Virus record (IMG/VR): IMGVR_UViG_3300027746_000041
Span: 1-41,357 of that record
Strand: one strand, 5' to 3'
Source: a virus
DNA: 41,357 nt
The notes under the pieces are model-generated. The model ran no database searches, was not told where the DNA came from, and saw only the letters and a list, made by a program, of their open reading frames with translations. Shown piece by piece: positions 1 through 40,374 of the stretch. Positions within the stretch are counted from its first letter, which is position 1. Each line of letters starts with the position of its first letter. Position numbers and translations under genes: made by a program.

Positions 1-86
1 CCAAATTCCATAATTTCTAGAACTTTTTCCTTTGTCCCAATTTTTCGTATGCACAATACTGGGTTGTCTATATATTCTAATGTCAT
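1..86 (-). CDS. Partial small protein (5' end only, duplicate of the gene at 40845-41114)
   Basis: The first 28 codons of an unrecognised small protein, cut by the window edge. In this copy the start is ATG at 86-84, overlapping the upstream stop as ATGA, with an AGGAG ribosome binding site in the end of the upstream gene. The full-length copy is at 40845-41114, where the start codon is GTG. The two copies are the same locus seen at both ends of a circular genome. Confidence 0.75.
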   Translation of the reverse strand, partial: MTLEYIDNPVLCIRKIGTKEKVLEIMEF

Positions 87-329
87 TTTGTTTCTCCTAT
101 GTTTGTATTTGGGTATAACGGATGTGGACTAATCAACGCTGAACGAACCAACATATTATCTCTAATCCACTTTTTCTTTAGGATTTCCCCAAGTGCTCTT
201 TGTTCTCTTGCGAGCATGAAGTATCCATTGTTTTTTTGTTCACATATCTCGTAATATTCTTTTTTGTTGACACAAACACCACCAATAAGCCTTATCATCT
301 CACCTTCCTTGAGACCATACCAAGCCATA
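1..329. repeat. Terminal direct repeat, left copy
   Basis: Bases 1-329 align without gaps to 41029-41357 and differ at five positions (72, 86, 148, 197, 203). The repeat covers the 3' part of one small minus-strand gene and the 5' end of the next. It most likely marks the overlap of a circular or circularly permuted genome rather than a true 329-bp physical end, because reading through the join restores both genes and their overlapping stop-start signal. Confidence 0.9.
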
Positions 330-382
330 TCTTGTGGTGAAATTCTTGTGTCGTACTCGTAGTCCTGTGAGACATCTATCAT
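83..382 (-). CDS. Hypothetical protein, 99 aa
   Basis: I do not recognise the family. The protein is soluble and mixed charged, with a central stretch rich in Lys, Glu and Tyr (KKEYYEICEQKNNGYFMLA) and no membrane segment. The ATG at 382-380 overlaps the stop of the upstream gene as ATGA, with AGGAG seven bases before it. It belongs to the tightly coupled run of small genes 779-83, which continues across the contig join into 41114-40430. A second, 5'-truncated copy lies at 41111-41357 with two conservative substitutions (Glu to Asp, Val to Ile). The clustered synonymous and conservative changes support real coding. Confidence 0.75.
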   Translation of the reverse strand: MIDVSQDYEYDTRISPQDMAWYGLKEGEMIRLIGGVCVNKKEYYEICEQKNNGYFMLAREQRALGEILKKKWIRDNMLVRSALISPHPLYPNTNIGETK

Positions 383-603
383 TCTGTTTCTCCTGTGTAA
401 ACGTATGTGTCATTGGTGCTGTTTGGAGGTTGTGCAATACCAGTTATTGCATACAAACTCCCGAACCTACCACGCAAATAATAGCCGTAATAGTCATCGG
501 TCAATAAATTTCCCTTGAGCATCATCTTGGTAATGAACCACCAACTGTCCCCCCAATTTCTGCCGTTCCTGTAATGCTGCTTTATGTTTCTGATGTGCTT
601 CAT
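379..603 (-). CDS. Hypothetical protein, 74 aa
   Basis: An unrecognised small basic and aromatic protein (NWGDSWWFITKMMLKG near residues 15-30, then a Tyr/Gly-rich stretch). An in-frame ATG exists at 645, but I place the start at 603 because GGAGGAGAA, an almost perfect ribosome binding site, lies a few bases upstream. That site overlaps the last codons of the preceding gene, whose stop is at 606. The stop overlaps the next gene's ATG at 379-382. It is part of the coupled minus-strand operon of small early-type genes. Confidence 0.7.
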   Translation of the reverse strand: MKHIRNIKQHYRNGRNWGDSWWFITKMMLKGNLLTDDYYGYYLRGRFGSLYAITGIAQPPNSTNDTYVYTGETE

Positions 604-605
604 TA

Positions 606-779
606 TTATTCTCCTCCGTTTGATGGATGATTCTTCATTGTCCACTCACGAGACATGAAGTCTCGCTGGGTTACATGCTTGTCTTTGCTTTCCTTGCCAA
701 CAACCCACGCAAACGCATACACGATTGAATGACTTGCCAATAACACGGTGAATACACCGAACCAATTAGTTATCATCAT
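606..779 (-). CDS. Small single-pass membrane protein, 57 aa
   Basis: The N-terminal half is one hydrophobic segment (about residues 5-28, WFGVFTVLLASHSIVYAFAW), followed by a charged cytoplasmic-type tail. This suggests a small inner-membrane protein; its role is unknown. A longer frame reaches 824, but the start at 779 (an ATGATG pair) has AAGGAG eight bases upstream, and the extra residues would run through the regulatory repeats. It heads the run of overlapping genes 779-83. Directly upstream is a GGTATC-N4-GATACC palindrome and a conserved repeat block that also occurs upstream of the gene at 1448-1906. Confidence 0.65.
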   Translation of the reverse strand: MMITNWFGVFTVLLASHSIVYAFAWVVGKESKDKHVTQRDFMSREWTMKNHPSNGGE

Positions 780-881
780 TGCTGTGCTCCTTATCCGGGT
801 ATCGGTTGATACCGTGTGGCACACAAATCAACAATCATCTGCTGACCTGTGTACTCACGCTAACTACCGACTTAATTGTAT
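780..881 (-). promoter_or_regulatory. Upstream regulatory region with GGTATC palindrome and repeat blocks A and B
   Basis: Reading leftward toward the gene at 606-779, this gap holds block A (840-870), block B (811-826) and a perfect 6-bp-arm palindrome GGTATCGGTTGATACC (798-813) just before the AAGGAG site. Blocks A and B recur at 1987-2017 and 1966-1981 with one mismatch each, in the same order and at the same place relative to a gene start. I read this as a shared operator/5' leader. No convincing -35/-10 pair is evident. Confidence 0.6.
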
Positions 882-1109
882 TTAGTATTTTGGATTGTAA
901 CCCAGAAGCCACATATTTATTTGTTGCTCCATGTTTTGCCCTTCTTTTATCTTTTGGTAGCCACGGTAAGGACCAGAAACGCCACGCAAGGCACGAAAGA
1001 AACAAGAACGCTTAGTTCCACCCGTTTGCCATCTATTGATGTACCAACGTACAAGAAACTTGTTGCCTTGTTTGTACAATCGCCATATCTTGTCTTCGTA
1101 TGTTTCCAT
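882..1109 (-). CDS. Hypothetical basic protein, 75 aa
   Basis: A Lys/Arg-rich small protein with several aromatic residues (KIWRLYKQGNKFLVRWYINR near the N terminus). I recognise no domain. Its ATG shares one base with the TAA stop of the upstream gene (TAATG at 1107-1111), so translation is probably coupled. The strong net positive charge would fit nucleic acid binding, but that is only an inference. Confidence 0.65.
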   Translation of the reverse strand: METYEDKIWRLYKQGNKFLVRWYINRWQTGGTKRSCFFRALRGVSGPYRGYQKIKEGQNMEQQINMWLLGYNPKY

Positions 1110-1321
1110 TATGCAGCCAATACAACAATTTGTGTTGCAACACCTGCATGAACCAACTCTTCACCAATGGTTGAATAGAACGGGTCAAAGTTCTCGCCAG
1201 GCTTTTCAGACTGGCGCAATATTTGTTCCCATTGCTCTTCTTGTGACACAATGCTGTCACCCACGATGAACTCGTAGGTTGCCATGATGTCATCATCCAT
1301 ACTGTCTTGTGCTCTGCTCAT
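1109..1321 (-). CDS. Hypothetical acidic protein, 70 aa
   Basis: A short acidic protein (SMDDDIMATYEFIVGDSIV, then EEQWEQIL) without a recognised domain. The start at 1321 is supported by AAGGAG with a seven-base spacer. It is the first gene after the hairpin-rich gap 1322-1447 and is overlapped at its stop by the next gene, so the two form a two-gene unit. The hydrophobic C terminus (HAGVATQIVVLAA) is probably a helix end rather than a membrane anchor. Confidence 0.7.
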   Translation of the reverse strand: MSRAQDSMDDDIMATYEFIVGDSIVSQEEQWEQILRQSEKPGENFDPFYSTIGEELVHAGVATQIVVLAA

Positions 1322-1345
1322 TCTATTTCTCCTTATTTATGTTTG

Positions 1346-1362
1346 GTGGCAAACCGTGCCAC
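1346..1362 (-). promoter_or_regulatory. Stem-loop upstream of a ribosome binding site
   Basis: GTGGCA-AACCG-TGCCAC gives a perfect 6-bp stem with a 5-nt loop. It lies in the leader of the gene at 1109-1321, a few bases 5' of the A-rich spacer and the AAGGAG site. Several leftward genes have a comparable hairpin at the same position. Confidence 0.6.
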
Positions 1363-1381
1363 AACGGGGTAATCAAACCGT

Positions 1382-1412
1382 GCTTACGACTGGAGTCGAA
1401 CCAATCGTAAGC
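1382..1412 (-). other. 12-bp hairpin resembling a tRNA acceptor/T-arm minihelix
   Basis: On the minus strand GCTTACGATTGG pairs with CCAGTCGTAAGC over 12 bp (one T-G wobble) around a seven-base loop TTCGACT. The loop and its closing G-C pair match the T-loop consensus of tRNA (TTCRANN closed by G53-C61), and 12 bp equals a 7-bp acceptor plus a 5-bp T stem. An A follows as in a discriminator base, but CGG replaces CCA. There is no room for an anticodon arm, so it is not a tRNA gene. Function unknown. Confidence 0.6.
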
Positions 1413-1428
1413 GACCACCTAACTAGAT

Positions 1429-1447
1429 GTGTAAGACCGTCTTACAC
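1429..1447. repeat. 19-bp perfect palindrome, copy 1 of 3
   Basis: GTGTAAGACCGTCTTACAC: 9-bp arms around a single central base. It begins immediately after the TAA stop (1450-1448) of the gene at 1448-1906. The same palindrome occurs at 2635-2653 and 40342-40360, always between leftward genes. The symmetry and the one-base centre suit a dimeric repressor operator; as RNA it could also fold as a tight hairpin. Confidence 0.85.
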
Positions 1448-1906
1448 TTATTTGTGTGCCAATTTCCATTGCACTACCAATGCAAGCAACTCGGCTTCGG
1501 TCAAAGCAATGACCTTGACCTCCAACGCACGAACTTTCTTTGTGCGACGAGGTGCAGTCTTGTCTGACGTCTTGCCCTTGCCCTTGCCCTTGATGGTTGC
1601 TTTCATTGCAGCCTCAACAGTTTTGTGCTTCTTGAAGAAAGCAATTGCTTCTCCAAAGAACACAACCATTGCCTGGTCTGTCTTCGCAAATGATTCTGCG
1701 TTGTTAGCAATAGCCAACTTGCGAACCGTTGTTGAAGTATCCTTGGCAACAACACCGACAATCTGCTGACCGAGCAACCAACGGTTCTTGCGAGCCGTTT
1801 CGTTTGCTGTGTCTGCTGACTTCTGTGTGGTAACGGCACGCTTCGTGGCTACACGAAGTTTGCCGAGACTTGTTGACACTGTGATGTTTTTCTTTGACTT
1901 ACGCAT
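1448..1906 (-). CDS. Lys-rich DNA-binding-like protein, 152 aa (paralogue of 2744-3142)
   Basis: A basic protein with Lys/Arg-rich ends and a helical middle. Around residues 40-110 it has a WxLGxxI segment, then a helical stretch ending in HKTVEAAMK, followed by a Gly-Lys repeat (KGKGKGK). The protein at 2744-3142 has the same order: WQLG, helices, HKTLEQAMK, then an Ala-Lys repeat. I read the two as divergent paralogues. The charge and layout suggest nucleic acid binding, possibly of phage or host DNA. No family name can be given. The start at 1906 has AAGGAG. The upstream leader carries repeat blocks A and B, and the stop abuts the 19-bp palindrome. Confidence 0.7.
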   Translation of the reverse strand: MRKSKKNITVSTSLGKLRVATKRAVTTQKSADTANETARKNRWLLGQQIVGVVAKDTSTTVRKLAIANNAESFAKTDQAMVVFFGEAIAFFKKHKTVEAAMKATIKGKGKGKTSDKTAPRRTKKVRALEVKVIALTEAELLALVVQWKLAHK

Positions 1907-2032
1907 TATATTTCTCCTTATGTTTGTATTTCACAATTAGACCGAATTGTAGCGGGGTGATAATCACCGTGTGGCTCACAAGCCATTGCTGACCTGTGAA
2001 CTCACGCTAACTACCGAATGATAATCGGTTGA
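1907..2032 (-). promoter_or_regulatory. Upstream regulatory region with repeat blocks A and B and two palindromes
   Basis: In leftward order the gap holds block A (1987-2017), block B (1966-1981), a 13-bp palindrome GGTGATAATCACC (1956-1968) and an ACAATT/AATTGT stem-loop (1933-1950). An A-rich spacer then leads to AAGGAG. The blocks match those at 780-881. A looser version of the core, CGGGGTAATCAAACCGTG (1366-1383), occurs in the leader of the gene at 1109-1321. Confidence 0.6.
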
Positions 2033-2338
2033 TTATTTGGTTGCCATTGCAACAGCAACTTCGTTTGCCCACAATGCTTTGAGTTGCTTGAGGGTGACAT
2101 TCATGCTCTCAACGAGTGCAATTTTGTTCACAGCATTTGCGCTGAAAGCCTGTGCGACTGAAAGATGGGCATTGTATGATGTGAAATCCATACGACGCTT
2201 TGCAATCATTGCATCAGTTGGCTTGATAGCACACGCAACACGAATAGCGTGTGTGCGCTTCAGAGCCTTGCTCTTGTTCTTCGCCTTGCGACGACGAGCC
2301 GAACGAACCGAATATTGCTTTGTTGTATCTGCTTTCAT
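2033..2338 (-). CDS. Hypothetical basic protein, 101 aa
   Basis: The first 40 residues are very rich in Arg and Lys (SVRSARRRKAKNKSKALKR) and the rest is Ala-rich and helical. This profile fits a nucleic acid-binding or nucleoid-associated protein, but I recognise no family. The start at 2338 follows AAAGGTAGG. The leader upstream contains the palindrome GTCCACGGTGGAC (2368-2380) and a 9-bp stem-loop (2388-2415). Confidence 0.65.
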   Translation of the reverse strand: MKADTTKQYSVRSARRRKAKNKSKALKRTHAIRVACAIKPTDAMIAKRRMDFTSYNAHLSVAQAFSANAVNKIALVESMNVTLKQLKALWANEVAVAMATK

Positions 2339-2367
2339 TACTTACCTACCTTTACGTTTGTATTTCT

Positions 2368-2415
2368 GTCCACGGTGGACAATTGAACACACAAGTCAGA
2401 GGGTCAACTTGTGTG
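2368..2415 (-). promoter_or_regulatory. Palindrome and stem-loop in the leader of the gene at 2033-2338
   Basis: GTCCACGGTGGAC (2368-2380) is a perfect palindrome around one base. CACACAAGT (2388-2396) pairs with ACTTGTGTG (2407-2415) over 9 bp around a 10-nt loop. Both lie between the gene at 2453-2608 and the start at 2338. They could act as a terminator for the former, or as operator or mRNA-protecting hairpins for the latter. Confidence 0.55.
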
Positions 2416-2452
2416 CTCTCAACCAACCGTGATTGGTGTATTTATTTGATGA

Positions 2453-2608
2453 TTAGAACTCTGGGCGTGGGTTCAAATCCTCAATTATGTTGTGAAGCCG
2501 TGCAACTTCAGCACGATAGCCAGCGCAGTTGATGCGATGACGCTCAATCCATTCTGCCCTTGACTGCTCAAGAAGAGCAATCTGCTTTTTCATTTCTTTC
2601 TTGGTCAC
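2453..2608 (-). CDS. Small coiled-coil-like protein, 51 aa (GTG start)
   Basis: An easily missed small gene. GTG at 2608-2606 follows AAAGGG, and the frame runs to a TAA at 2455-2453. The protein begins MTKKEMKKQIALLEQSRAEW and continues as an amphipathic helix with Leu/Ile at heptad-like spacing, ending in a Pro-rich tail (NPRPEF). It is probably a short coiled coil; function unknown. It lies directly downstream of the second copy of the 19-bp palindrome and of a strong terminator hairpin, so it looks like its own transcription unit. Confidence 0.65.
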   Translation of the reverse strand: MTKKEMKKQIALLEQSRAEWIERHRINCAGYRAEVARLHNIIEDLNPRPEF

Positions 2609-2634
2609 TTTATGTACCCTTTCAGTTTGTAAAT

Positions 2635-2653
2635 GTGTAAGACGGTCTTACAC
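2635..2653. repeat. 19-bp perfect palindrome, copy 2 of 3
   Basis: GTGTAAGACGGTCTTACAC, the same palindrome as at 1429-1447 with the complementary centre base. It lies 27 bp upstream of the GTG start at 2608 and beyond a terminator hairpin (2692-2713). That position suits an operator for the small gene at 2453-2608. Confidence 0.85.
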
Positions 2654-2691
2654 AAAGTAAATGCCTACAATAAGCACCTACAACCTACAAA

Positions 2692-2713
2692 GAGCCAGCC
2701 CGAAGGCTGGCTC
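2692..2713 (-). terminator. Strong hairpin terminator
   Basis: GAGCCAGCC and GGCTGGCTC form a perfect 9-bp GC-rich stem. On the minus strand the loop is TTCG, an extra-stable tetraloop, and the stem is followed by TTTG. It lies about 30 bases after the stop of the gene at 2744-3142, in the right orientation to end that transcript. The U tract is short. Confidence 0.75.
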
Positions 2714-2743
2714 AATGAGTTGACAATGTGGTACTGTCCTTAG

Positions 2744-3142
2744 TTATTTACCACTCTTTGGTGCTCTGTCAAACACCTTTGATGTGCGAAGCACATAAGC
2801 ACGCTCACGCTTGTTGAGCGAAGCAAATCCCATAGCAACTTTCATTGAACGGTCTGTCTTCAATGGTTGGATGCTTGGCTTCTTTGCTTTTGCCTTTGGC
2901 TCTTTCATCGCCTGCTCAAGCGTCTTGTGTGTCTTCGCAATAAGCATTGCTCGTTGCATCATCTTGCGAGTGGACTCTCGGTTCCCACCGAGGTCTTTGC
3001 AGACCTGAGAGATGACAATGCTCAACTGTGAACGACTCTCAATTAGATTGAGTGCCACACCTAGTTGCCAATGTTTCGCTCGGGTCGTAGCCCGTGATGA
3101 TTGACACGCTCTTGCAAGCGTTGTGTATTTGCTACCTGACAT
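2744..3142 (-). CDS. Basic helical DNA-binding-like protein, 132 aa (paralogue of 1448-1906)
   Basis: A Lys/Arg-rich protein. Residues about 20-80 look like a helical HTH-type domain (KHWQLGVALNLIESRSQL, then a helix with GGNRESTRKMMQRAMLI), followed by HKTLEQAMK and an Ala-Lys repeat. The same motif order occurs in the protein at 1448-1906. A role in binding DNA or as a regulator is plausible but inferred. The start at 3142 has AGGGAG. It is the first gene downstream of the long non-coding stretch 3143-3520 and ends at its own hairpin terminator. Confidence 0.7.
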   Translation of the reverse strand: MSGSKYTTLARACQSSRATTRAKHWQLGVALNLIESRSQLSIVISQVCKDLGGNRESTRKMMQRAMLIAKTHKTLEQAMKEPKAKAKKPSIQPLKTDRSMKVAMGFASLNKRERAYVLRTSKVFDRAPKSGK

Positions 3143-3204
3143 TATTGTTTCTCCCTATTTCTATTTGAGCCCGAATAAATCGGACTAATTGGTGGATTAT
3201 TTCT

Positions 3205-3222
3205 CGGGGACAATTGTCCCCG
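3205..3222. promoter_or_regulatory. 18-bp perfect palindrome
   Basis: CGGGGACAATTGTCCCCG is self-complementary with no spacer. It lies about 60 bp upstream of the start at 3142, within the leftward leader. It could be an operator for a dimeric regulator. A GC-rich cruciform or RNA hairpin is the alternative. Confidence 0.6.
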
Positions 3223-3391
3223 AACAAGTCACATAGCCCCACACAGTTCATTGGGTTGCCCCATCAGAACTAGGTCGGACACACGACTTACACCCTACCT
3301 AAGTGCTGGTTTCCGTCAATCGGCGCAAACAGGCGCAGACAGCAAAGAAGAGGGCATAGTGGCCCCCCCATGCCGCCGTTGAGAAATGGAT

Positions 3392-3434
3392 GGTGTTGCC
3401 TCGTGTCCCAAGCAACCACTCTTTTTTTATTTTA
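3392..3434 (+). terminator. Rightward terminator-like hairpin without an upstream gene
   Basis: GTTGC (3395-3399) pairs with GCAAC (3412-3416), extended by three pairs across a one-base bulge, and is followed by CTTTTTTTATTTT. The orientation is plus, yet no plus-strand gene precedes it in this region. Either it ends a small untranslated RNA, or it blocks read-through into the divergent promoter zone. The stem is modest. Confidence 0.45.
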
Positions 3435-3520
3435 CACTTTTATTTTTTTATATGTATTTTCTTTTTTGTCTCCGCATAGGGGGGCACCTTTTCAATAGGG
3501 TACCTTAATTCAAAATTATA

Positions 3521-3784
3521 TTAGCAATCCCATTTTCTTAGCGCCAACGCTTTGCGGGTTGGCTTGCCGTTTGGCTTTTTCATTGGTCCTGGCATGCCAC
3601 CCATTCGTGCACAAAAAGATTTGCGTCGTGCAGCAGATTTAGAAGACTTAGCAGCCTGTTTGGCTGACACTGGTGGCTTCAAAGTGCCACCTGTTTGTGC
3701 TTTGTATGAAGCACGTCCTTTTGCATTGAGACCACCCGCAGGGTTTTTGCCTTCTTTGCGTGTCCATGCTGCTGTCTTAGCCAT
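3521..3784 (-). CDS. Small basic conserved phage protein, DUF6321-like, 87 aa
   Basis: The motif order WTRKEGKNPAGGLNAKGRASY, then RRKSFCARMGGMPGPM, then GKPTRKALALRKW matches a small conserved family I know from phages and large DNA viruses, often filed as DUF6321. Its function is not established. The frame is open to a TTG at 3838, but I prefer the ATG at 3784 because AGAGG lies eight bases upstream and family members begin near MAKTAAWTRK; 3790 is another option. It is on the minus strand, back to back with the rightward terminase operon. A GC-rich hairpin covers the extended N-terminal part. Confidence 0.7.
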   Translation of the reverse strand: MAKTAAWTRKEGKNPAGGLNAKGRASYKAQTGGTLKPPVSAKQAAKSSKSAARRKSFCARMGGMPGPMKKPNGKPTRKALALRKWDC

Positions 3785-20695: not shown

Positions 20696-23600
20696 GTGGC
20701 TAGCGCAAATGATGAACTAGAGAAAAGATTGCGCAACATTCGTTCGGCTTCAAGCCTGAATGTTGCCCCATCAGAGAGTACGCAAACTTCTGTTTTGCGT
20801 AACGCTCAACTTGGTTTAAGGGATTACGGTATTGATTCAATTCGTAAGGCTCCATCTTTGTCAGAAAAGATTGCGCAAATTGCTTCCGGTGCACCACAAC
20901 CATCAAGGAACCCAGCCATTAGTGCAGCCCTGCTTCCACTCAAGGCACTAGGAACAGCGGGAAGAGTTCTGTCAACTCCGTTGTACGGAGTTATTTCTGG
21001 CATTCGAGAAACAGTAGACGCTTTGGATAATGATGCGAAGACAAAAGCGTCAATGAGTGATTTTACAAAACAGATGTTTAGTGAAGATTTTGGTTTTGGA
21101 ACCGCCTTCCCAATGAAGGGAAATGTTGGTCGTGCTATTGCTTTTGGTGTTGATTTAGGTCTGGACCCTGTTAACTGGGCAACTTTTGGTGGAACCATTC
21201 TGCCCAAGGTTGCTCTTAAGGGTGTTGCAGAGGTTGCAGGTAAAGAGGGTGCAGAGATACTTGTCCGCCAAATTCTTGGAAAGAACGTTGGCGGGCGTCA
21301 AGGCGCAGAGGCGTTGGCGGTTATTGTTGAAAAAGAATTGCGTACCGCCAATTTAGTTGAGGGTGCTGCCAAATTAAGTGACATGGAAATTGGAGACATT
21401 GTTGGTCGTGTTTATTCTCGTAACTGGTCTGCAATTCCAGAAGAGATTGCAAAAAAATATTCTATAAATCCTCCTGGAATTTATTATGCTGGTTCACGAT
21501 TCAGGGTTCCTGGTTCCAAAGTTATTGGAGAGTTTGGTCAAAGAGGTTTAATTGGTGGACGACTTTGGTTTGTTAACACCAGTGTTGGCAAAAAGATTGC
21601 CCGTGCTTTCATGCCCGGAAGAACGGCAGAAGTTGCTGCAAGCATGATGGGTAAAATTAATGTTCGTCAATTAAGAACAGAACTTCGTGCTGGACGACTT
21701 ACGGGCGAAGAAGCAGCAGCGGCAGTTGCTGCATTGGGTGTAGACCAAATGGGAAGAATGGCAAGAGGTGTTGTAAAATCTAAAGCAACAGAAATTCTTA
21801 AACCGTTTGTTGTTGGTGAAAAAATGGCAACGTTTGCTCACTCTGTTTCTCGATTAATGGAACAAGGTGGAGAAGAGTTGGCAAAGTCTGCTCCTGCAGC
21901 CGAACGTGAACTGGCACAAGAAATGACCGGAATCATGAAGAAATTTTATGGTGAAATTGAATCTGTCATGAAAACAATTGACCCAGAATTTGAGATTGGC
22001 AGTATTGATAGTTACTTTCCACACGTTCTTTCTGAACAGTCACAGGCTGCAGCAAATAACTTGGCAAACCCACGAAGCGAATTGATTCGTCAATATGCAA
22101 AATTTAAAGGTCACGACATTTCTGGTTCTTTTAAATCTAGAACTATTAAGGCTGGGCAACCATTTTTGGAAGAACTTGGTGGACCAAAAGAACTGTTACC
22201 TAATCAGGTTACGGTAATTGAGTTAAACAAAATTTCGCAAAAACTATTGGGTTTCCCAATGTTTGAAACTGATGCACGAAAAGTTTTGTTGCGTTATGCA
22301 GACCATTACGCATCCGCCATGGGCGATGCCGCAATGATGAGAGAGATGCTGTCTAAGCCGTACTTAATGGACACCATTAGAAAAGTAAACGGTATTGATG
22401 TTGATGTTTTGAATGCCCACAAAAAAGATGTTGCTAATTTGATTTCCAAAAAGATATCAACTGGAAAACAATTTTCTAGGTTGTTGCAAACAACCACTGA
22501 AAAATTGTTTGGAACATCGGAAAAAGTTGGTCAACTTCCAGCGTTGTTAGACACTTTGGAAAAAAAGGCAGCAAAACTTACTGGTGAATTAGATACACCT
22601 GAACAACTTGATGGTGCTCGCAAGATTATTGTAGATTTGTTTGAAGAACTTAAATCGGTGCATGCAGATTTTGTGGCACAAAGAGAAGTAACATCAAAAA
22701 CACTTGGCGAACAAGACGGAATTTTAAAACTTATTACGAAACAAGAGGCTGATGCTACTAAAGACTTTGAAGAAATTGGTCAAATTGTAAACAGGATTCT
22801 TGTTGATTCTTATGGTTATACCCCTGGAGCAACACTGGCAGACAATGCTGCACAATTGGTTCCAGATAAATTGGACCAAGTTATTGTTGACACTGCAACA
22901 AACAAAGCAGCAATGACCGAACAGTTGGCTAGCGTGAAATTTTTGATGGAAAAATTGCAAACAAAAGTTAACGACCTTGACAAGATGCAGGAACTTTATA
23001 ACGTTTTGGGCATGGGTGAGGGTTTGGAGAAAATCTTTAAAGATGCAATGGAAGCCGTAGATGGTGGAGATTTTGTAAACAATGTTTTGGATGGACTTGG
23101 TGTTCGTGGGGCACGAAAGAAATACACACGCACAACTAATGCTCAGGGAAAATTAACCGCTAATTGGGTTGATGATTTTTGGGGGCCTCGAGCACAGGCG
23201 CTCGATTCCAATGTTGCGTTGTTGAGAAACATGATTGACCCATATCAATCAATTTCTAGTTCTGCTCTTAAAAAAATGACAATTGGCGACGTGCGAACAA
23301 TTCTTTCTAAGTCAACCGTTGGCGTAGACAGGGTGGATGAGTTGCGCAGGGCTGTTGCTTGGTTGATAATTAGGGATACCCAGGCAAGCCCACAGGTTCT
23401 TTTAGATATAGCAACACTGCAGAGTAGCAAAGGAACTGCCAAGGTTTCTGCGACTGCCGAAAGATTTTGGAAACTAAAATCTTTGATGGAAAAGTCTGCA
23501 GAGATTTCCGAACACCTTAAGAAGTCAGCCTTAGAAGGAACGTTTAGCGGAAAACAATCTGAGTTGTTAAACGCAGAAATTGGAAATGCTGCTAGGGGTG

Positions 23601-26600
23601 GAAGAATACCGACAACTGCTCAACATCTTGAAAAAGCCATGGTTGAAAGAAATCAAGTTTTTGAAGACTTGCAAAGTGTTATTTCTGAAATAAGTTTCCA
23701 AGAAGGAATTACCCCCGGACAAAGTATTAGCGTGCTTGTTAATGATTTGCTGGACAGAAACCCTTTACAGTTAAATGAGGTAGTAAGCAATGGTGACATT
23801 GATTCTGTTCTGATTTCAATTCGTTCAAGCAAAAATACTACATTTAATGTTGAGCCACCGTCGTTTGGTCTTGAAGGAGACCGCATAGCAAACGAAGGTC
23901 TTTTTTCAGGAGACCTGTTGCAAACAGAAATTCCAGGCGTAATTGAATCTATGCGTGGAATAATGACCTACAAACAACTTAAAGATTTTGCTGAAGAATT
24001 GATGTTGGTTCAAGACGTACAATTTAAAGAAACTTTTACACAACTTAGACCAATTAAAGAATTGGTTGAATCTAGGGCAAATCTTACAGAAAGATTAAGC
24101 AACCTTGAAGAAAAGGTAATTCCAAGCATACGCAGAAACATGCTTCCTGTTCAAAAAGATGTCTACGAAATTATTTCAAATCAGGGTACGCAAGCAGATT
24201 TGATTAGAGAGTTTCAATCATCTCTTGACATATCAATGGTTGTTTCGGAAACAAACTTAAATTGGAATGCTCTAAATGCTGCACTTACTGACATAACTGG
24301 CTCAAGTAATCTTGTTGGTCTTGGGGACCAACAATATCAAGTTATGTTGGCTTTGAATGCCAAGGTTCATGCAGATGCATTGAGCGCATCAAATCGTTCA
24401 ATGCAAGAAGCAACCACATTGGTCGAAGAAATTCGAGACAGAGTTTTGGCTATGCCAGATAGGTCGCAACAACCAGAGGCTCTTGCGGGTGAAATGCGCA
24501 AATTGCTTGAGGGACCAAATGGATTAAAAATTAAAACTTACTTTCCAGAATTTGAAAAAATTCTAAGTGTTAAAAGGGCAACGGGAATTAAGAGTGCAGA
24601 ACTTGCTCACCCTGGTGTGGCACAAATAAGAGACGACCTTACAGACATTCTTGTTGATATATCTGTGCGTCCAGAAACTCCTGGTTTGTCCAGCACTATG
24701 AGGAGAACGGGAGACCCTCTTGATGGTGGAAACGAATTTCTTAAGAGTACTGCTGGGATTCCTTCGGAGGCTTCTCAGGAGGCAACAATTAGAAGTTCTG
24801 CTGGTTTGCAAAATGCAAAAACAATTATTGCCAAAATTAAAAAACAATTAGCAGAAGATATACCCACAGTTGCACGTGGTTCAAAGAAACTTGATTTAAG
24901 TGAATCGCAGTTAAAGACCGTAAGAAGAATTGAACAACAACTTGTTGCTGGCAAAGGAACAATGACTCCACTTGAGCAAAGAGAACTTGCTACACAAATT
25001 CTTGAAATTCAATATGGTGTTGATAATATTGTCCAACCATCTTACAGTTGGGCTGATGTTGACGCACAGGTAACTAAATACGAATCTGATTTACAAGAAC
25101 AATTGAAATTAATGAATGATGATTTGGCTACAGAAAAACGACGTGCTGCCTTGGCTGTTGAGGTGGGTGCTGCAACACGACCTGAAAGGTCAAGAACACG
25201 ACGAGCCAAAGATATTTTTGGTTTTGGAAGTTCGTTTAGTTCTGCAATAAAACCAAATAACAATAATTTTTATGTACGACGATTTTTTTCAGAAACAGTT
25301 GGTGGTGCCCCGATGTCGGTTGGCGACTCTGGGTTTAAGCGTCCGTGGAGCATATCTAATGTCACCACCGAAAATCGTCTTGCTGCGTCAATGAAAACAA
25401 ATACGTTGGCTAACTCTCAGGCTGGACGAGCACTACAGGCTGGTATTGAACGACGTTCAACCATGCTTGCTCTTGCTGACCCGCAATTGGCTAGAGTTTC
25501 TGCCGAAAACATTATAAATGGACTGGGAGACAGCAGCCCAATTTCTCCAGTTTTTCTTGCAGAGTCACTTGAACAACAAGTTCAAGTTTTAACAAACAAA
25601 TTAAAAGAAAATGAAAAGTTTAGAAGGCTTATTGCTAATGATGAAACTCTTTTAGCGCAACTTGACCAAAGACTTCCATATACCGAAGAACAAATAGCAT
25701 ATGTTAAAGAACTTGGATTTCTGGAACCAATTCAAACAAAAGCAGGATTACGAGTAAGACCGACAACGCCGGCTGAAGTAGCCAGGTTGTCGGAACAAGA
25801 AGCAATTGATTTAAAAGAATTGCGCCAACTTCGTCTTGTCTCCGCAAGACTCAGGAACGACCCACAGTACGCTATTGCGCAACAACAGAGGGCAAGGTTT
25901 GATATCCTTGATGTTTTGGCAAAGATTGACGGAGACAGGGTTGTCACAATGGATGGCACTCCGCAGTGGGGAACTCACTCGAGTTATCAAACTCATGTTT
26001 ATGGTGACCCACAATTTGAGCCACTTACCGATGATGTTTTGATTGAGCGTCTTCTTGGTGGTCGTGGTGGACGAGATGTTGAGTTGATGGGTCAAAACGT
26101 ATCTAAGAGACCGAGAAGCGAATCGGTTATTGCTGGTATTAGAAAATACGGCGAAGTTGAATGGGACTTCTTGCCAAGAGGAACATCAATTCATGCTGTA
26201 AAAATGGAACAAGTAGATTTTATTCCAGGCATGACAGACGCTGATTATGTTTTTGTTTCTGCTGATGGTTTGAGAATTAGTGCTGTTGAGGCACAACAGG
26301 CAGTTGGTTCTAGCCAACCAATTACTGTTTTGAAGCCAATAACTTCAGATGGTTCTCTTGGTGGTGCAAACAGGTTGCAAGAATTGTCTTTGCGCAAGGG
26401 TGAATCATTTACTCCAAAAGAAACTTGGCTTATTTCTCCTGCTGGTGAATACAGCATATATCAAAGAAACATTGCCGGTGGTACCCTTGGTGGACGTGGT
26501 GAGGGTGGTGCTATTCTTACCCTGCCTATTGAGCAGCCATCAAGAGTTGTTCAATATGTTCGTGGTGCAGAAGCAAACAACATTGTTGACTTTACAATGC

Positions 26601-29600
26601 CCAATGGTTCTCCTCTTGCGTTTAGCAAAGAGGAATGGGATTCTTTGTTTTTGCCAATTGCTCCCCATGAACGAACTTTGGTAAACATTGAAAAAGAATT
26701 TCTTGATGCAAAGAGCGATGAAGCATCGCTGCTTGCGTATCAGAGAACAAACGAATACAAAAAACTTTCCAAATCTGCACAAGTAAAACATCAGGTTGCA
26801 CGTGTAAGTGCAACAAATAGAAAACTTGCGCTTCGTGAACAGAGAAACGCAATGGCTAGACAGCCTTTGGATTCATACACATTTGCTCGTGTCCGTAGCG
26901 AAATTGCCAAGACACAGGAATACATTAATGGCTTGAAAACAAGACTTAGCGGACGGGGTGGCAATCTTCTTGACCAAACAGGAAGAACTAATGTTAAAGC
27001 AAAACTGGAAACGGCAAGCAGAAGAATGAATGAGTTGTTGGCTCATCAAAAGAAAATAACAGTATCTGGTACTGCTTCTGTAAAGATTGACCGACTTGTT
27101 GAACTTGCCGGTACGCCCGAGGTTGCAAGGGCTCTTGGAATAAAACCACAGGCTGACGGAACTTTTGATTCGTCAAAAGTTCTTAAAGCACTTGTAGAAA
27201 GAATGCAGGGTTCTGTTTCCAAAGATGGTAAACCCCTTGCTTCGTCTGCGGAAAGTGTTGCTAAAAGAGTTGCTGGGACAAAAGATGGTTGGGCGTTTAG
27301 TTCTGGAAAATCTTATATGGAAACTGTGAGTGCTGCAGATTCTGTTGTTCTTGGCGCAAATTACTTTAAAAGAATTAACGAAGAATTTGAACCAATTTTA
27401 ACTGAAATAACACGGGCAAGAAAAAGAATTGCAGAAATTAAGAGGGAACAATATAACGCTGTTGACCCGGTTGGATTTGCTGAAGATGTTGTTGGGTTGC
27501 AAACTGCTTCAAGAGAAGCAACAGATGTGTTGCGAGTTGGCGAAACTTCGCAGTTGCCAACTCCAAAATATGCAGCAGGTGATTCTGGGATGGGAGCGGT
27601 TCGTGCTTCTCAACGAAATGTTTCTCAAATGGAATCCGACATTAAGAAAATTAATCTTGAAATAAGGTCATTGAGCAAAGAAATTAACGACCTTGAAAGA
27701 AGGTCGTCAAGAACCGTAGGCGACATCCAAGAGGGATTGACCGTTGAGGGCGCAGACAGAATACAACGTCGTGCGGCTTTGCAGACACAAAAGAAAAATA
27801 TTCAACAACAAATCAAAGCAGAACTTGATTCGATTGATGATTATGCACAGTCAATTGTTGCAACACTAAGACCATCTGCTTCTGGTGAATCCCCAATGCT
27901 TGCAGATGCAACGGCTTTTATTCGTCTTGTGCGAGAAGTTAAACTTAAGACCAATTCATCTTCTGTTGTTGACGCAAAACAATTTAAAAAAGTTCTTGAA
28001 GATTTGGCTGCAGGTTTTGAGTCTGCAAGAAGCCAACAGGTAAAAGTTATGATGTTTAACGATGCAAAAGAAAACTTGAGAAACATATTGGTAAAGAGGA
28101 ATGAAGTTCTTAAAACAATTTCTAATTTGCCAGATAACAGTGCTGCAATTTTAAATGCGGAAGATACTTTGGCAAGAGCATTTGCTGGAACATCACAAGA
28201 TACGTTTACTCGTGAAGGTAAGTTAATAAAAGGTACTGCTCCGACATCTCCTGCTGGAAAGATGCTTGCAGATGCACAAAAGGCAATTGCTCCTATACGA
28301 AAAACAAAAACCAAACTTACAGACGCAACAGATGCGCTTCACAAGGCTGTTGTTATGTTTGACTATGCAGCATTTGATAACCTTACTTCTGCCAAAAAGT
28401 TGTCCGAAGTACAAGAAAGAATTAGTGCAGTTAAAATTTTAATGGACCAAAGCAGGAGTCTTGCTACACAGACACCAGAAACACTTGAGTGGAATAAGGC
28501 TGCACAAGAACTTCTTGATGAGGTAACCGTGTGGGGCAATTTTGCTTTTGCAGAAAATGGAAAAGTTGATAAAACTTTTTCTGATTGGGCTAAGCAATAC
28601 ATTGCGCTAAAGGCTGCTCACTTGGAAAGCACCGCTAACGCAGATGCTGCCAATATTCTTTTGCAAAAAGCAACGTCTTTGCATTTGGCTGCAAGCGGTT
28701 TCCCAACCGTTTTGCTTCCAGGTTTTGAAAGAGTTGAGTCGCTTCCCGAAGGTTGGGGTGCCATGATTTCAACCATGAAAGATGGTTGGGTGCACCTTGA
28801 TGCAGAAAGATTCCCAAACATTCAGGTTCATCCGGAACTTGCAAAACTGTACGAGAACGTCAACAGGATTCAATCTCCTTTAATGGCTCAAGAGTTGTCT
28901 AGGCTTATTGGTGGGTACACCAAGTTCTTCAAGGCATACGCAACATTGAGTCCTGGTTTTCATGTGAGGAACGCAATCTCCAACGCTGTGCAACATTTTG
29001 CTGGTGGTGGAGACCCAAGATATTTAATGGAGGGTTTGCAGGTTACAAATGCTTGGGGTCAGGCTTCGAGAAACGGCAAGTCTTGGGAGCAGTTCTTAAC
29101 TTCTCTTGCACCAGAGCAAGCCAAGCATGCACAGGTTGCTCGTGATTCGGTATTCGGTTCTGGCGGTGGTTTGTTTGAGTTCTTGTTTGATGGGATTCGT
29201 GGAAACAACAGAATGTCAAACAACTTTGTTGTTAACAAATCTAAATCAGCAGGACAAGCGTCAGACAACTTTTCAAGATTTCTTTTTGGTTATGACGCCT
29301 CCAAGCAGGGGCTTGGAGTCGAGCAAGCAACAGCACGAACTTCTCGTTTCTTTATTGATTACGAAGACATCTCCAGTGCTGATGAAATCATTCGTCAGAT
29401 TATCCCGTTTTGGATGTGGACATCAAGGAGTCTTCCAGTTCACATGATGAACATGTGGACAAACCCAAAGCCTTACGGTGTGTATCGTGCAATTAAGAGA
29501 AACCTTAAAGATGACAATGATGAGACTATTCTTCCAGAATACATGCAACTGTCTGGGGCGTTTAAGTTGCCGTTTGGAAACAACCTTTACGCAAACCCAG

Positions 29601-30070
29601 AATTTGGTTTCACCCAAATTGACAAACGTATTAACGATTTGGAAAACCCAAGGAAGTTATTGGGTGACATGAACCCATTACTGCGTGTTCCAATGGAACT
29701 CGCTGCTGGTAAAAGTTTCTTTAACAACAGACCGTTTAGTGAGAACCCTGTAAAGGTGTCTGGTGGTATTCAAAACATTCTTCAACCGTTGTTAGAACAA
29801 CTTGGTATGGGTAGCACTAATGCTGCTGGAGAAAAGTTTGTTCAAGATGACAAGTATTATGCTTTAAGAAACTTAATTCCATTTCTTGGAAGTTTGGAAA
29901 GACTATCCCCAACTGTTGATACAGAAAATCCAACAAACAATAATGCGCTTGCTGGTTGGCTCGGTTCACCAGTAAAAGAATACGGTGAGAACATGCAAGC
30001 AGCACAACTTAATAAACTAAAAGGACTTATTGCAAAAGAGGTCTCCAAGAACAAGGCGGTAAACGGATGA
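20696..30070 (+). CDS. Giant internal virion / DNA-ejection protein, 3124 aa (GTG start)
   Basis: One frame of 9.4 kb, about 23% of the genome. GTG at 20696 follows GAAGGG. The protein is mainly helical, with coiled coils (for example about residues 2305-2375). The C-terminal 450 residues contain segments known from large phage internal proteins: YATLSPGFHVRNAISNAVQ (near 2748), FFIDYEDIS (near 2885) and MWTSRSLPVHMMNMW (near 2906). It probably travels with the DNA, spans the envelope and may form the ejection channel, as in T7 gp16 or N4-type virions. I could not identify polymerase, transglycosylase or protease motifs with confidence. It overlaps the endolysin gene by ATGA. Confidence 0.75.
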   Translation: MASANDELEKRLRNIRSASSLNVAPSESTQTSVLRNAQLGLRDYGIDSIRKAPSLSEKIAQIASGAPQPSRNPAISAALLPLKALGTAGRVLSTPLYGVISGIRETVDALDNDAKTKASMSDFTKQMFSEDFGFGTAFPMKGNVGRAIAFGVDLGLDPVNWATFGGTILPKVALKGVAEVAGKEGAEILVRQILGKNVGGRQGAEALAVIVEKELRTANLVEGAAKLSDMEIGDIVGRVYSRNWSAIPEEIAKKYSINPPGIYYAGSRFRVPGSKVIGEFGQRGLIGGRLWFVNTSVGKKIARAFMPGRTAEVAASMMGKINVRQLRTELRAGRLTGEEAAAAVAALGVDQMGRMARGVVKSKATEILKPFVVGEKMATFAHSVSRLMEQGGEELAKSAPAAERELAQEMTGIMKKFYGEIESVMKTIDPEFEIGSIDSYFPHVLSEQSQAAANNLANPRSELIRQYAKFKGHDISGSFKSRTIKAGQPFLEELGGPKELLPNQVTVIELNKISQKLLGFPMFETDARKVLLRYADHYASAMGDAAMMREMLSKPYLMDTIRKVNGIDVDVLNAHKKDVANLISKKISTGKQFSRLLQTTTEKLFGTSEKVGQLPALLDTLEKKAAKLTGELDTPEQLDGARKIIVDLFEELKSVHADFVAQREVTSKTLGEQDGILKLITKQEADATKDFEEIGQIVNRILVDSYGYTPGATLADNAAQLVPDKLDQVIVDTATNKAAMTEQLASVKFLMEKLQTKVNDLDKMQELYNVLGMGEGLEKIFKDAMEAVDGGDFVNNVLDGLGVRGARKKYTRTTNAQGKLTANWVDDFWGPRAQALDSNVALLRNMIDPYQSISSSALKKMTIGDVRTILSKSTVGVDRVDELRRAVAWLIIRDTQASPQVLLDIATLQSSKGTAKVSATAERFWKLKSLMEKSAEISEHLKKSALEGTFSGKQSELLNAEIGNAARGGRIPTTAQHLEKAMVERNQVFEDLQSVISEISFQEGITPGQSISVLVNDLLDRNPLQLNEVVSNGDIDSVLISIRSSKNTTFNVEPPSFGLEGDRIANEGLFSGDLLQTEIPGVIESMRGIMTYKQLKDFAEELMLVQDVQFKETFTQLRPIKELVESRANLTERLSNLEEKVIPSIRRNMLPVQKDVYEIISNQGTQADLIREFQSSLDISMVVSETNLNWNALNAALTDITGSSNLVGLGDQQYQVMLALNAKVHADALSASNRSMQEATTLVEEIRDRVLAMPDRSQQPEALAGEMRKLLEGPNGLKIKTYFPEFEKILSVKRATGIKSAELAHPGVAQIRDDLTDILVDISVRPETPGLSSTMRRTGDPLDGGNEFLKSTAGIPSEASQEATIRSSAGLQNAKTIIAKIKKQLAEDIPTVARGSKKLDLSESQLKTVRRIEQQLVAGKGTMTPLEQRELATQILEIQYGVDNIVQPSYSWADVDAQVTKYESDLQEQLKLMNDDLATEKRRAALAVEVGAATRPERSRTRRAKDIFGFGSSFSSAIKPNNNNFYVRRFFSETVGGAPMSVGDSGFKRPWSISNVTTENRLAASMKTNTLANSQAGRALQAGIERRSTMLALADPQLARVSAENIINGLGDSSPISPVFLAESLEQQVQVLTNKLKENEKFRRLIANDETLLAQLDQRLPYTEEQIAYVKELGFLEPIQTKAGLRVRPTTPAEVARLSEQEAIDLKELRQLRLVSARLRNDPQYAIAQQQRARFDILDVLAKIDGDRVVTMDGTPQWGTHSSYQTHVYGDPQFEPLTDDVLIERLLGGRGGRDVELMGQNVSKRPRSESVIAGIRKYGEVEWDFLPRGTSIHAVKMEQVDFIPGMTDADYVFVSADGLRISAVEAQQAVGSSQPITVLKPITSDGSLGGANRLQELSLRKGESFTPKETWLISPAGEYSIYQRNIAGGTLGGRGEGGAILTLPIEQPSRVVQYVRGAEANNIVDFTMPNGSPLAFSKEEWDSLFLPIAPHERTLVNIEKEFLDAKSDEASLLAYQRTNEYKKLSKSAQVKHQVARVSATNRKLALREQRNAMARQPLDSYTFARVRSEIAKTQEYINGLKTRLSGRGGNLLDQTGRTNVKAKLETASRRMNELLAHQKKITVSGTASVKIDRLVELAGTPEVARALGIKPQADGTFDSSKVLKALVERMQGSVSKDGKPLASSAESVAKRVAGTKDGWAFSSGKSYMETVSAADSVVLGANYFKRINEEFEPILTEITRARKRIAEIKREQYNAVDPVGFAEDVVGLQTASREATDVLRVGETSQLPTPKYAAGDSGMGAVRASQRNVSQMESDIKKINLEIRSLSKEINDLERRSSRTVGDIQEGLTVEGADRIQRRAALQTQKKNIQQQIKAELDSIDDYAQSIVATLRPSASGESPMLADATAFIRLVREVKLKTNSSSVVDAKQFKKVLEDLAAGFESARSQQVKVMMFNDAKENLRNILVKRNEVLKTISNLPDNSAAILNAEDTLARAFAGTSQDTFTREGKLIKGTAPTSPAGKMLADAQKAIAPIRKTKTKLTDATDALHKAVVMFDYAAFDNLTSAKKLSEVQERISAVKILMDQSRSLATQTPETLEWNKAAQELLDEVTVWGNFAFAENGKVDKTFSDWAKQYIALKAAHLESTANADAANILLQKATSLHLAASGFPTVLLPGFERVESLPEGWGAMISTMKDGWVHLDAERFPNIQVHPELAKLYENVNRIQSPLMAQELSRLIGGYTKFFKAYATLSPGFHVRNAISNAVQHFAGGGDPRYLMEGLQVTNAWGQASRNGKSWEQFLTSLAPEQAKHAQVARDSVFGSGGGLFEFLFDGIRGNNRMSNNFVVNKSKSAGQASDNFSRFLFGYDASKQGLGVEQATARTSRFFIDYEDISSADEIIRQIIPFWMWTSRSLPVHMMNMWTNPKPYGVYRAIKRNLKDDNDETILPEYMQLSGAFKLPFGNNLYANPEFGFTQIDKRINDLENPRKLLGDMNPLLRVPMELAAGKSFFNNRPFSENPVKVSGGIQNILQPLLEQLGMGSTNAAGEKFVQDDKYYALRNLIPFLGSLERLSPTVDTENPTNNNALAGWLGSPVKEYGENMQAAQLNKLKGLIAKEVSKNKAVNG

Positions 30071-31128: not shown

Positions 31129-31297
31129 GTTTTTTTTTCCTTTTCTTATTAGCAACATATATGAACCCGTAGGGCATACCGTTTTCCGATACTCCTTGAC
31201 CCACAGTAACGTCGCCGTAATGCGCTGCAAGAATTTTAGCAACCGTTTGCGGACTAACCTCAACATCAAAACCCACTGTTATCTGTCTTGTCGTCAA
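31121..31297 (-). CDS. Hypothetical small protein, 58 aa (TTG start, easily missed)
   Basis: TTG at 31297-31295 follows GAGAGAGG with a seven-base spacer, an excellent site. The product begins MTTRQITVGFDVEVSPQTVA and continues KILAAHYGDVTVG, ending in a basic tail (KKRKKKHV). The sequence looks like a compact alpha/beta domain with a nuclear-like Lys cluster at the end. It overlaps the end of the sigma-like gene by 32 bases and the start of the next gene by 8 bases, which fills an otherwise empty part of this tight operon. Confidence 0.65.
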   Translation of the reverse strand: MTTRQITVGFDVEVSPQTVAKILAAHYGDVTVGQGVSENGMPYGFIYVANKKRKKKHV

Positions 31298-31562
31298 GGT
31301 TAAGCCTCTCTCTAATTATTGGATGTTTGATAAGAATTGATTGTAGTCGTTCGTATGCAGAGTTTCTCAGACGCCAGGCGTGTGTTTTCGTGACACCAAG
31401 GCGTTCACCAAGTTCCTGCAAAGACACCATTTCTGAGTTAAGTGCATCAATGATAAACCTATCTTGTTCTCCTAGTTGCTCTATACAAGAAGCAATGGCT
31501 TCTCGTAATGGTTGCAATTCTTGAACAGACTCAATAGTTGCTTCACCAACACCAGCCATCAT
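31266..31562 (-). CDS. Sigma-70 region 4-like HTH protein, 98 aa
   Basis: Residues about 31-75 (EQDRFIIDALNSEMVSLQEL, then GERLGVTKTHAWRLRNSAYERL) match the region 4 helix-turn-helix of sigma factors. The pattern includes a D/E-x-x-FI helix and the GVTKTHAWRL recognition helix. Regions 2 and 3 are missing, so it is probably a small transcription regulator that binds promoter DNA or RNA polymerase. I chose the ATG at 31562 (GGAAG upstream). The frame is open to a TTG at 31604, which would sit inside a hairpin (31597-31617) and lacks a site; an ATG at 31574 is another option. Confidence 0.75.
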   Translation of the reverse strand: MMAGVGEATIESVQELQPLREAIASCIEQLGEQDRFIIDALNSEMVSLQELGERLGVTKTHAWRLRNSAYERLQSILIKHPIIRERLNLDDKTDNSGF

Positions 31563-31596
31563 TAGGGCTTCCATTGGCGTTTCAGGTCGTCTCCCA

Positions 31597-31617
31597 CCAC
31601 GCAACGTACTTGCGTGG
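31597..31617 (-). terminator. Hairpin between nuclease and sigma-like genes
   Basis: CCACGCAA (31597-31604) and TTGCGTGG (31610-31617) form an 8-bp stem around a 5-nt loop, about 20 bases after the stop at 31639. There is no T tract. It could terminate, attenuate or mark a processing point before the sigma-like gene. Confidence 0.5.
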
Positions 31618-31638
31618 TAGGGATTAAGGGATATTTCT

Positions 31639-32073
31639 CTATTCTTCAGCGTCGTACTCGGGGTTAATTAGCATGTCCATTACTTCTTCGGGTAATAGCA
31701 AGAATCCTTTTGTTGGATTATTTGAGTTCCATGCAAACTTTTTTAATCTGCCGGCTGGAAGGGTTGCAATGTATCGTTTAAGTCTGTCAACAGATACCGC
31801 AATCATTCCACCATCAAGACAGTAGATGTACACCCACCATTTTGCTTCGGTAACAAACAGTCCAGAATCTTTCCAACCTGTTTCTCTTGGGTTTTGTTGT
31901 GTCTCAACAACCATACGACCATTTCGGTATCGGTCTGTCTTAACTTCAAATGAACCGTCTGCTATTGATTGCAAAAAGTTTCGTGTTAGTTCTTCACCTT
32001 TGCTTCCGAACTTCATGTCGTCCGAAAAGTTGTATCTACGTTCTGCTGGAAAGTCCCATCTAGATTCTTTCAT
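31639..32073 (-). CDS. PD-(D/E)XK-like nuclease candidate, 144 aa
   Basis: KFGSKGEELTRNFL (about residues 21-34) resembles the first helix of restriction-like nucleases. SFEVKTDRYRNG (41-52) has the E-x-K core and MVVE (54-57) supplies a further acidic residue. A role in DNA processing would fit the neighbouring RusA, primase and helicase. The ATG at 32073 overlaps the RusA stop (TAATG). A frame to 32097 is open but would run into that gene. The nuclease call rests on motif shape and is not certain. Confidence 0.6.
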   Translation of the reverse strand: MKESRWDFPAERRYNFSDDMKFGSKGEELTRNFLQSIADGSFEVKTDRYRNGRMVVETQQNPRETGWKDSGLFVTEAKWWVYIYCLDGGMIAVSVDRLKRYIATLPAGRLKKFAWNSNNPTKGFLLLPEEVMDMLINPEYDAEE

Positions 32074-32435
32074 TATGCTTTCTCCAAATACAGGCAAACA
32101 ATCTGTTTGTCATCTGTGTATGCCACACCGTTAAGTGCGTCAAGCACAGACTTGGCATAGTTGTCTATGTCGCCTGTGAGTTTTGTTTTTGGTCCATCAA
32201 CTAATGGATTGTGAATTACTGGTTCAATCATTATTTCTGTTCCTTCTATTGTGAAACGCAACTTCACCGACAAAAGACCTGTCTCGAATAGTGGTCCAGC
32301 GTACAAGTCTGCTATTGACTTCTCGTAGTCCACTGTTGCTTTAGGTGTGTAGGCACGACCTGTTCTTGTCATTCGTGGTCGTGCTTTTGCCTTAGGTCTT
32401 ACGGCAAGGTTTTGATGGTACTGATACTTTTTCAT
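32073..32435 (-). CDS. rusA: RusA-family Holliday junction resolvase, 120 aa
   Basis: RusA features are clear: the basic N-terminal KAKARPRMTRTGRAYTP, then GDIDNYAKSVLDALNG (88-103) with the catalytic aspartates, and YTDDKQI (106-112). Length is typical. It would cut branched DNA formed during replication and recombination before packaging. It overlaps the primase stop as ATGA and is followed by the second nuclease. Confidence 0.9.
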   Translation of the reverse strand: MKKYQYHQNLAVRPKAKARPRMTRTGRAYTPKATVDYEKSIADLYAGPLFETGLLSVKLRFTIEGTEIMIEPVIHNPLVDGPKTKLTGDIDNYAKSVLDALNGVAYTDDKQIVCLYLEKA

Positions 32436-36968: not shown

Positions 36969-37090
36969 TTTGTTTTCTCCATGTCTGTTGGCTTATGTTT
37001 GTTTGAACACTTAGGGGTTTCCCTAAGTGGTATGAAGGTGGTCAAAATCTGCTTACAGACTTTGCACACCCAATTCTGCCTTATTTGCAT
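36965..37090 (-). CDS. Zinc-ribbon-like miniprotein, 41 aa
   Basis: From the ATG at 37090, which has AGGAAGG seven bases upstream, the product is MQIRQNWVCKVCKQILTTF and on, with C9, C12, C28 and H32 as a probable zinc site. Longer starts at 37126 or 37177 lie within the WhiB gene and lack a site. It overlaps the WhiB gene by 38 bases in another frame and the next gene by ATGA. Confidence 0.6.
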   Translation of the reverse strand: MQIRQNWVCKVCKQILTTFIPLRETPKCSNKHKPTDMEKTK

Positions 37091-38054: not shown

Positions 38055-38066
38055 TTGTGTGTACCC

Positions 38067-38096
38067 TTCTGTGGGGGCTTGCGCCCCCACGGTTGT
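38067..38096 (-). repeat. Intergenic hairpin repeat, copy 1 (GNRA loop)
   Basis: A 30-bp sequence identical to 39126-39155. Its core (38071-38090) is an 8-bp stem, GTGGGGGC/GCCCCCAC, with loop GCAA on the minus strand, a stable GNRA tetraloop. It follows the amidotransferase stop (38101) and is followed at once by AGAAGG, the ribosome binding site of the next gene. Termination, mRNA protection or processing are all possible. Confidence 0.8.
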
Positions 38097-38100
38097 GTGT

Positions 38101-39111: not shown

Positions 39112-39125
39112 ATGTTATGTGTCCT

Positions 39126-39155: not shown

Positions 39156-39163
39156 TTGTATGT

Positions 39164-40243: not shown

Positions 40244-40292
40244 TACCAACCTCTTTCTGTTTATGTGTACGCATGTATGGAAGTCCCACACA

Positions 40293-40332: not shown

Positions 40333-40341
40333 CGGGCTAAA

Positions 40342-40360: not shown

Positions 40361-40374
40361 TCCAACCTGCGCCG

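Follow-up and report, generated by a model that had tools for sequence, protein, structure and literature searches.

Evidence for a family of structured RNA leaders in the intercistronic gaps of a metagenomic virus

Do nearly identical stretches of DNA in front of two different genes of a virus form an array of operators, or do they encode a structured RNA? The window, i.e. the whole stretch of DNA analysed here, is a 41,357-base virus record, and an earlier note on its sequence had offered both readings for two blocks repeated in the same order before the minus-strand ATG starts at 779 and 1906. The repeats and their order are as described. Block A, 31 bp with one mismatch, lies at 840-870 and 1987-2017, with 0 occurrences expected when the whole window is dinucleotide-shuffled 100 times; block B, also with one mismatch, lies at 811-826 and 1966-1981 and is weak taken alone (3 matches vs 0.60 expected, allowing up to 3 mismatches). 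The spacing between the blocks is unequal (13 nt and 5 nt), and palindromes are present on the ribosome-binding-site side at 798-813 and 1956-1968. Read on the minus (coding) strand, the blocks are not two separate sites: together they supply both arms of a single hairpin, P2, along with its flanks. In the 779 leader, block A joins the 5' strand of a helix P1 to the 5' arm of P2; block B spans the end of the P2 3' arm and CACACGGT.

Two more leaders, before 2338 and before 40243, were found beyond the three seen previously, giving five in the window (Table 1). On the minus strand all five beat each of 200 shuffles, and the same stretches on the plus strand were weaker in every case (z -1.31 to -4.42). 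The minus strand of the window contains seven hairpins of at least 12 bp with G-U pairs allowed, whereas 30 dinucleotide shuffles gave 0.67 on average and never more than 3; the plus strand contains one. These seven are the five P2 stems, a palindrome hairpin at 40335-40367 and a hairpin at 31593-31621. The third, weaker version proposed before 1321 stands in part: its TAGTTAG core, 12-bp P2 and P4-type hairpin are there, but neither of the covariance models described below (R1 and R2) matches it at E<=1, and shuffled versions of its P1/P3 flanks fold just as well. A tRNA-like reading of this leader, based on a T-loop-like TTCGACT, was dropped, since ARAGORN reported no tRNA or tmRNA and the loop letters vary in other leaders. 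Searching Rfam 15 at gathering score gave no matches in the window or in the related records L096, L103, L111 and L086; weak matches to PsrR1, Yfr1 and P9 were far below their gathering scores and were discarded.

Table 1. Leaders of the window, their helices and one adjoining palindrome
Feature	Position	Strand	Details	Fold z
Leader of gene 606-779	798-870	-	P1 5' strand within 856-870; P2 15 bp, arms 854-840 and 833-819	-6.98
P3 of 779 leader	813-798	-	GGTATC-AACC-GATACC	
Leader of gene 1448-1906	1932-2017	-	P1 2015-2008 with 1966-1959; P2 12 bp, 2001-1990 and 1985-1974	-4.55
P3 of 1906 leader	1968-1956	-	GGTGA-TTA-TCACC; bases in common with P1	
P4 of 1906 leader	1951-1932	-	Hairpin	
Leader of gene 1109-1321 (weaker copy)	1346-1425	-	P2 12 bp, arms 1412-1401 and 1393-1382; TAGTTAG core	-3.40
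P4-type hairpin of 1321 leader	1362-1346	-	Loop CGGTT	
Leader of gene 2033-2338 (class B)	2366-2442	-	P1 2431-2426 with ACCGTG; P2 14 bp, 2418-2405 and 2398-2385	-4.04
P3 of 2338 leader	2380-2368	-	GTCCA-CCG-TGGAC	
Leader of gene 39164-40243 (class E)	40286-40345	-	P2 20 bp, arms 40334-40315 and 40310-40291	-8.36 (40264-40370)
Perfect palindrome GTGTAAGACSGTCTTACAC	1429-1447		Adjoins 1321 leader	

Relatives were collected with the terminase (80 loci), with the amidoligase-like protein (72 loci) and with patterns of the leader flanks (9, 3, 16 and 19 stretches of viral contigs, partly overlapping). The resulting sample, hand-picked and not exhaustive, comprises 39 leaders with 36 distinct P2 stems, and was divided into type A (779, 1906 and L094/L096), B (2338 and its relatives), C, D, and E (before the amidoligase gene). 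The 779 leader has the letters of the window's A type, its label C_W779 grouping it by downstream gene. In the main test, contigs were chosen by the flanking letters only, and the free inner part was scored for a stem of at least 12 bp. Such a stem was present in every distinct insert of class B (6/6), D (12/12) and C (8/8), with none of 200 shuffles as good in each class, and all 26 stems were 12-17 bp long. Among the type A inserts chosen in this way, three of four had a stem; the exception, L093, is a chance flank match without a stem and was dropped as a leader.

The pairing is kept while the letters change. In the long fold of class B (8 sequences) 99.0% of cells are paired and 9 of 24 pairs have changed on both sides; the figures are 98.0% and 5/27, all within P2, for class C (11 sequences), and 97.1% and 14/26 for class D (19 sequences), and 0/500 shuffles equalled them in each class. 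Sliding the partners as a control lowers pairing to 46.2% or less. Further pair types are not unusual in class B (62/500 shuffles for the long fold, 305/500 for the local fold) or class C (227/500), and in class D 25/500 shuffles did as well. Alignment A7 is biased towards the model structure, to which it was fitted; from alignment A5, which was not so fitted, RNAalifold recovers P1+P2, with a kept two-sided change in 15/26 pairs. Within the window, the 1906 leader, where both P3 and P4 are present, has class D covariation and the 2338 leader class B covariation. Both P1 and P3 of class B have changes on both sides, in P3 in 2 of 5 pairs, with row L096 misaligned there. P0, a hairpin before P2, has partial support in class B, with 71.9% of cells paired, and in class C P0 and P3 hardly vary and carry little information. 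The P3 hairpin occurs in 19/19 class D sequences and P4 in all 18 that cover the region, always with a C[CG]-rich loop of 5-6 nt, carried by many different stems. Since relatives keep the pairing with changed letters, the leaders almost certainly constitute a family of structured RNAs, and the structured RNA element reading is thus supported by covariation in related phages, a check that the earlier note had itself proposed. Conservation of shape under drifting letters suggests a hitherto undescribed element of RNA control or processing; the portions of the literature available to the search, including those of PMC8708148, hold no description of these leaders.

The departures from perfect pairing are also informative about the strand. 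The strand search scores G.U and A.C alike, both as mismatches, and the leader stems contain 54 G.U, 2 A.C and 4 other departures (56, 2 and 4 with a slightly different loop limit), counts that are not independent events because the sequences are related. Leaders of classes C, D and E were first picked allowing coding-strand G.U, which may inflate the ratio there; class B alone, mostly found by flank patterns, has 16 G.U vs 0 A.C. Such an asymmetry in strand-symmetric stems indicates selection on RNA rather than on DNA. The letters of P2 differ even among the leaders of one genome, and none of 940 cross-class arm pairs binds as well as the leaders' own arms, in a sample picked for having stems.

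Two covariance models, R1 for class B and R2 for class D, serve to look for the module elsewhere. R1 finds class E leaders outside its training set (L096, E 1.1e-6; L097, 0.003; L107, 0.0043), and reaches only E 0.8 on the class E copy of the window. R2, built without the 779 leader, finds 766-880 at E 9.3e-6, block A being common to this leader and the 1906 leader used in training. Weak matches of the models on the antisense strand arise because hairpins are self-complementary. In whole-record searches R1 or R2 match 11 of 14 records at E<=0.001, the records without a match at this threshold being L014, L040 and L018. With R1, sense-strand matches were obtained in three of the 72 terminase loci plus MW202803, many of these loci lacking the region; neither model matched the stretches of T7, TM4 and MW202803.

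The first 329 bases of the window recur at its end with 98.5% identity, and a near-identical contig joins its end to its start. Thus, a leftward operon starts with the minus-strand genes at 83-3142 and runs on across position 1 into 41,356-30,443; judging from gene order it is probably an early operon. The repeat itself (1-329 and 41029-41357) is 98.5% rather than 100% identical, which suggests that the assembly of this genome, about 41.0 kb and circular or permuted, includes strain variation. A WhiB protein encoded at 37053-37406 points to a host that is probably actinobacterial; RusA, primase-like, DnaB-like and PD-(D/E)XK proteins are also encoded. The small genes behind the leaders have no Pfam or PHROGs family match. 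Within the phage collection, MW202803 (named Podoviridae sp.) has the nearest terminase, at 53.5% identity, and searches of genome contigs for a host gave no matches by leader pattern and none by terminase. Leaders sit in the intercistronic gaps. Where the upstream ORF is clear, its stop codon precedes P2 by about 30-41 nt, and the start codon follows P2 by 39-71 nt. They are not bound to one gene: gene 83-382 is leaderless in the window and its homologue in L086 has a leader, and near-alike class C leaders precede genes beginning MNWFG or MRNPF. For the window, it proved wrong to take the genes behind class D leaders for homologues of gene 1906, as tblastn of the 1906 protein matches only L074 among the fetched loci; the genes after class D leaders and gene 1906 have their place in common and no detectable sequence likeness.

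The shared anatomy comprises a long P2, P1 continuing it below, and P3 overlapping the 3' strand of P1, to which class D adds the P4 hairpin before the ribosome binding site. Each leader therefore has two possible folds, one long hairpin (P1+P2) or P2 with short hairpins, and these are mutually exclusive because P1 and P3 use common bases. Fold energies were computed with pairing restricted to flank-to-flank (long) or within flanks (local). The long and local folds each gain on average 6.4 kcal/mol over shuffled flanks and beat the shuffled mean in 33/36 and 36/36 leaders, respectively, the local gain including a 5' flank palindrome hairpin in three of the four class E leaders (all but L097). 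The mean of long minus local is -2.4 in class B, -0.8 in C, -6.7 in D and +3.6 in E; the two folds are thus close in energy in B and C, and the long one is not favoured in E. The duplex of the long fold measures 30.9 +- 3.4 bp over 36 distinct leaders, flank pairs included, and in class B its 3' strand carries a bulge of 3 nt where P1 meets its continuation.

The reading preferred here, at a probability of roughly 0.45, is that the leaders are intercistronic processing and stabilising elements in the style of the RNase III sites of phage T7. The nascent RNA would form the long P1+P2 duplex, which a double-strand-specific RNase of the RNase III type would cut; the released 3' part would refold into P3 (and P4), and the mRNA of each gene would thereby gain a 5' end that is structured and protected, and a stability of its own. 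The mutual exclusion of P1 and P3 fits one fold before the cut and another after it, and the position, the duplex length and the indifference to sequence fit cutting at structured gaps as in T7. For comparison, the early gaps of T7 (NC_001604) were folded at the sites R0.3, R0.5, R1, R1.1 and R1.3. These are likewise hairpins in early-operon gaps, of about 17-21 bp with a lower and an upper stem, shortly before gene starts, and they have a 3' bulge of about 3 nt, as in class B; the leaders share with them a hairpin of about two helical turns in the gaps of what is probably an early operon. The departures in the T7 sites are 9 G.U, 3 A.C and 4 other. Unlike the T7 sites, the leaders have a longer upper stem and the alternative P3 fold, and belong to another phage and host; as neither covariance model matches T7, the likeness is one of design only. 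The class E leaders, in which the long fold is disfavoured, also speak against the processing reading. T7 R1.1 RNA is treated as an RNase III substrate in the part of PMC4858673 available. A bacterial parallel is the cip-cel operon, whose intergenic stem-loops are described, in the available part of the paper, as cleavage signals and transcript stabilisers tied to single-gene transcripts, although there its authors consider the enzyme to be probably RNase Y (PMC10311766).

The main rival, less probable but not remote, is a switch acting on translation or mRNA stability, which would also explain the two folds. Long and local hairpins would alternate and tune several genes together, the choice being made by a phage or host RNA-binding protein or by ribosomes ending on the upstream gene. 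The equal gains of both folds over shuffled flanks, their near-equal energies in B and C, and the two-sided changes in both P1 and P3 of class B would all suit such a switch, and the C[CG]-rich P4 loop of class D, kept on varied stems, could be a protein site. However, none of P1, P2, P3 and P4 includes the ribosome binding site, no masking fold was seen in an unsystematic look, and P2 has no conserved letters that a protein could read across classes. Exclusive folds in leader RNA are also what attenuation would use, and nut- and put-like sites exert an antitermination-type control of transcription. Control of either kind is improbable, given that no T run follows P3 or P4 in the leaders listed, that no minus-strand terminator-like site falls on P3 or P4, and that one operon contains several copies instead of a single copy at its start. 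At 1-3600 terminator-like sites are enriched (12 vs 3.4 expected) and promoter-like sites are not (4 vs 5.7).

At the DNA level, inverted repeats before genes in an actinophage recall operators and the ESAS-type repeats of Cluster K mycobacteriophages, which in the available part of PMC3203893 also have a variable spacer and lie upstream of a subset of non-structural genes. Operator-like palindromes do adjoin some leaders. The palindrome of Table 1 occurs three times in the window (1429-1447, 2635-2653 and 40342-40360) vs 0 expected, and among viral contigs only in the near-identical one; 12 of 13 related records (L096-L113) have 3-6 copies each of AACTGADA-N6-TMTCAGTT with fixed spacing, located next to leaders or forming the tip of P2 in class D. 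These dispersed palindromes look like the operators of a DNA-binding protein that acts as a dimer and varies in specificity from phage to phage. As an account of the leaders themselves, operators or ESAS-type repeats are very improbable: the stems of one genome differ where the same letters would be expected in each copy, and the excess of G.U over A.C contrasts with 3 G.U, 6 A.C and 10 other departures at the SAS sites of TM4. Departures in the ESAS arms are reported, in that part of PMC3203893, not to support RNA pairing generally. The operator-array reading of the blocks is not supported, their stem letters changing with the pairing kept. Identity with mycobacteriophage ESAS repeats is ruled out by the RNA pairing of the leaders and by a search for the 13-bp SAS, which finds no match in the window even when 2 mismatches are allowed. 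Least probable of all is a recent, functionless duplication of leader DNA; block A is 30/31 identical at two places of one genome, as a duplication would leave it, but related phages keep the structure with changed letters, which refutes this account unless all alignments mislead.

If the processing reading or the switch is right, a phage group seen only in metagenomes sets the output of single early genes by a repeated RNA module conserved in structure, and T7-type RNA processing or leader switching extends to actinophages. A bolder and rather doubtful proposal is a post-transcriptional regulon residing in structure alone, in which bistable early leaders with different letters and the same two folds would be reset by one dsRNA-directed factor, the module moving independently between genes and phages; several early genes of one phage would then be reset together.

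Some other features of the window may be mentioned. The hairpin at 31593-31621, of 12 bp on the minus strand, lies between gene 31639-32097 and ORF 31266-31604, whose listed TTG start falls inside it; the end of this ORF resembles sigma region 4 or an HTH motif by eye, with no Pfam match. A single gene at 20696-30070 encodes 3124 aa, one third of that length being already unusual, and has no PHROGs match at E<=0.001. The product of gene 39164-40243 is amidoligase-like (PF12224); Mycobacterium phages, among them Marvin, encode relatives. A 46-bp direct repeat (91%) occurs at 38055-38100 and 39115-39159, each copy just behind one of two neighbouring minus-strand genes.
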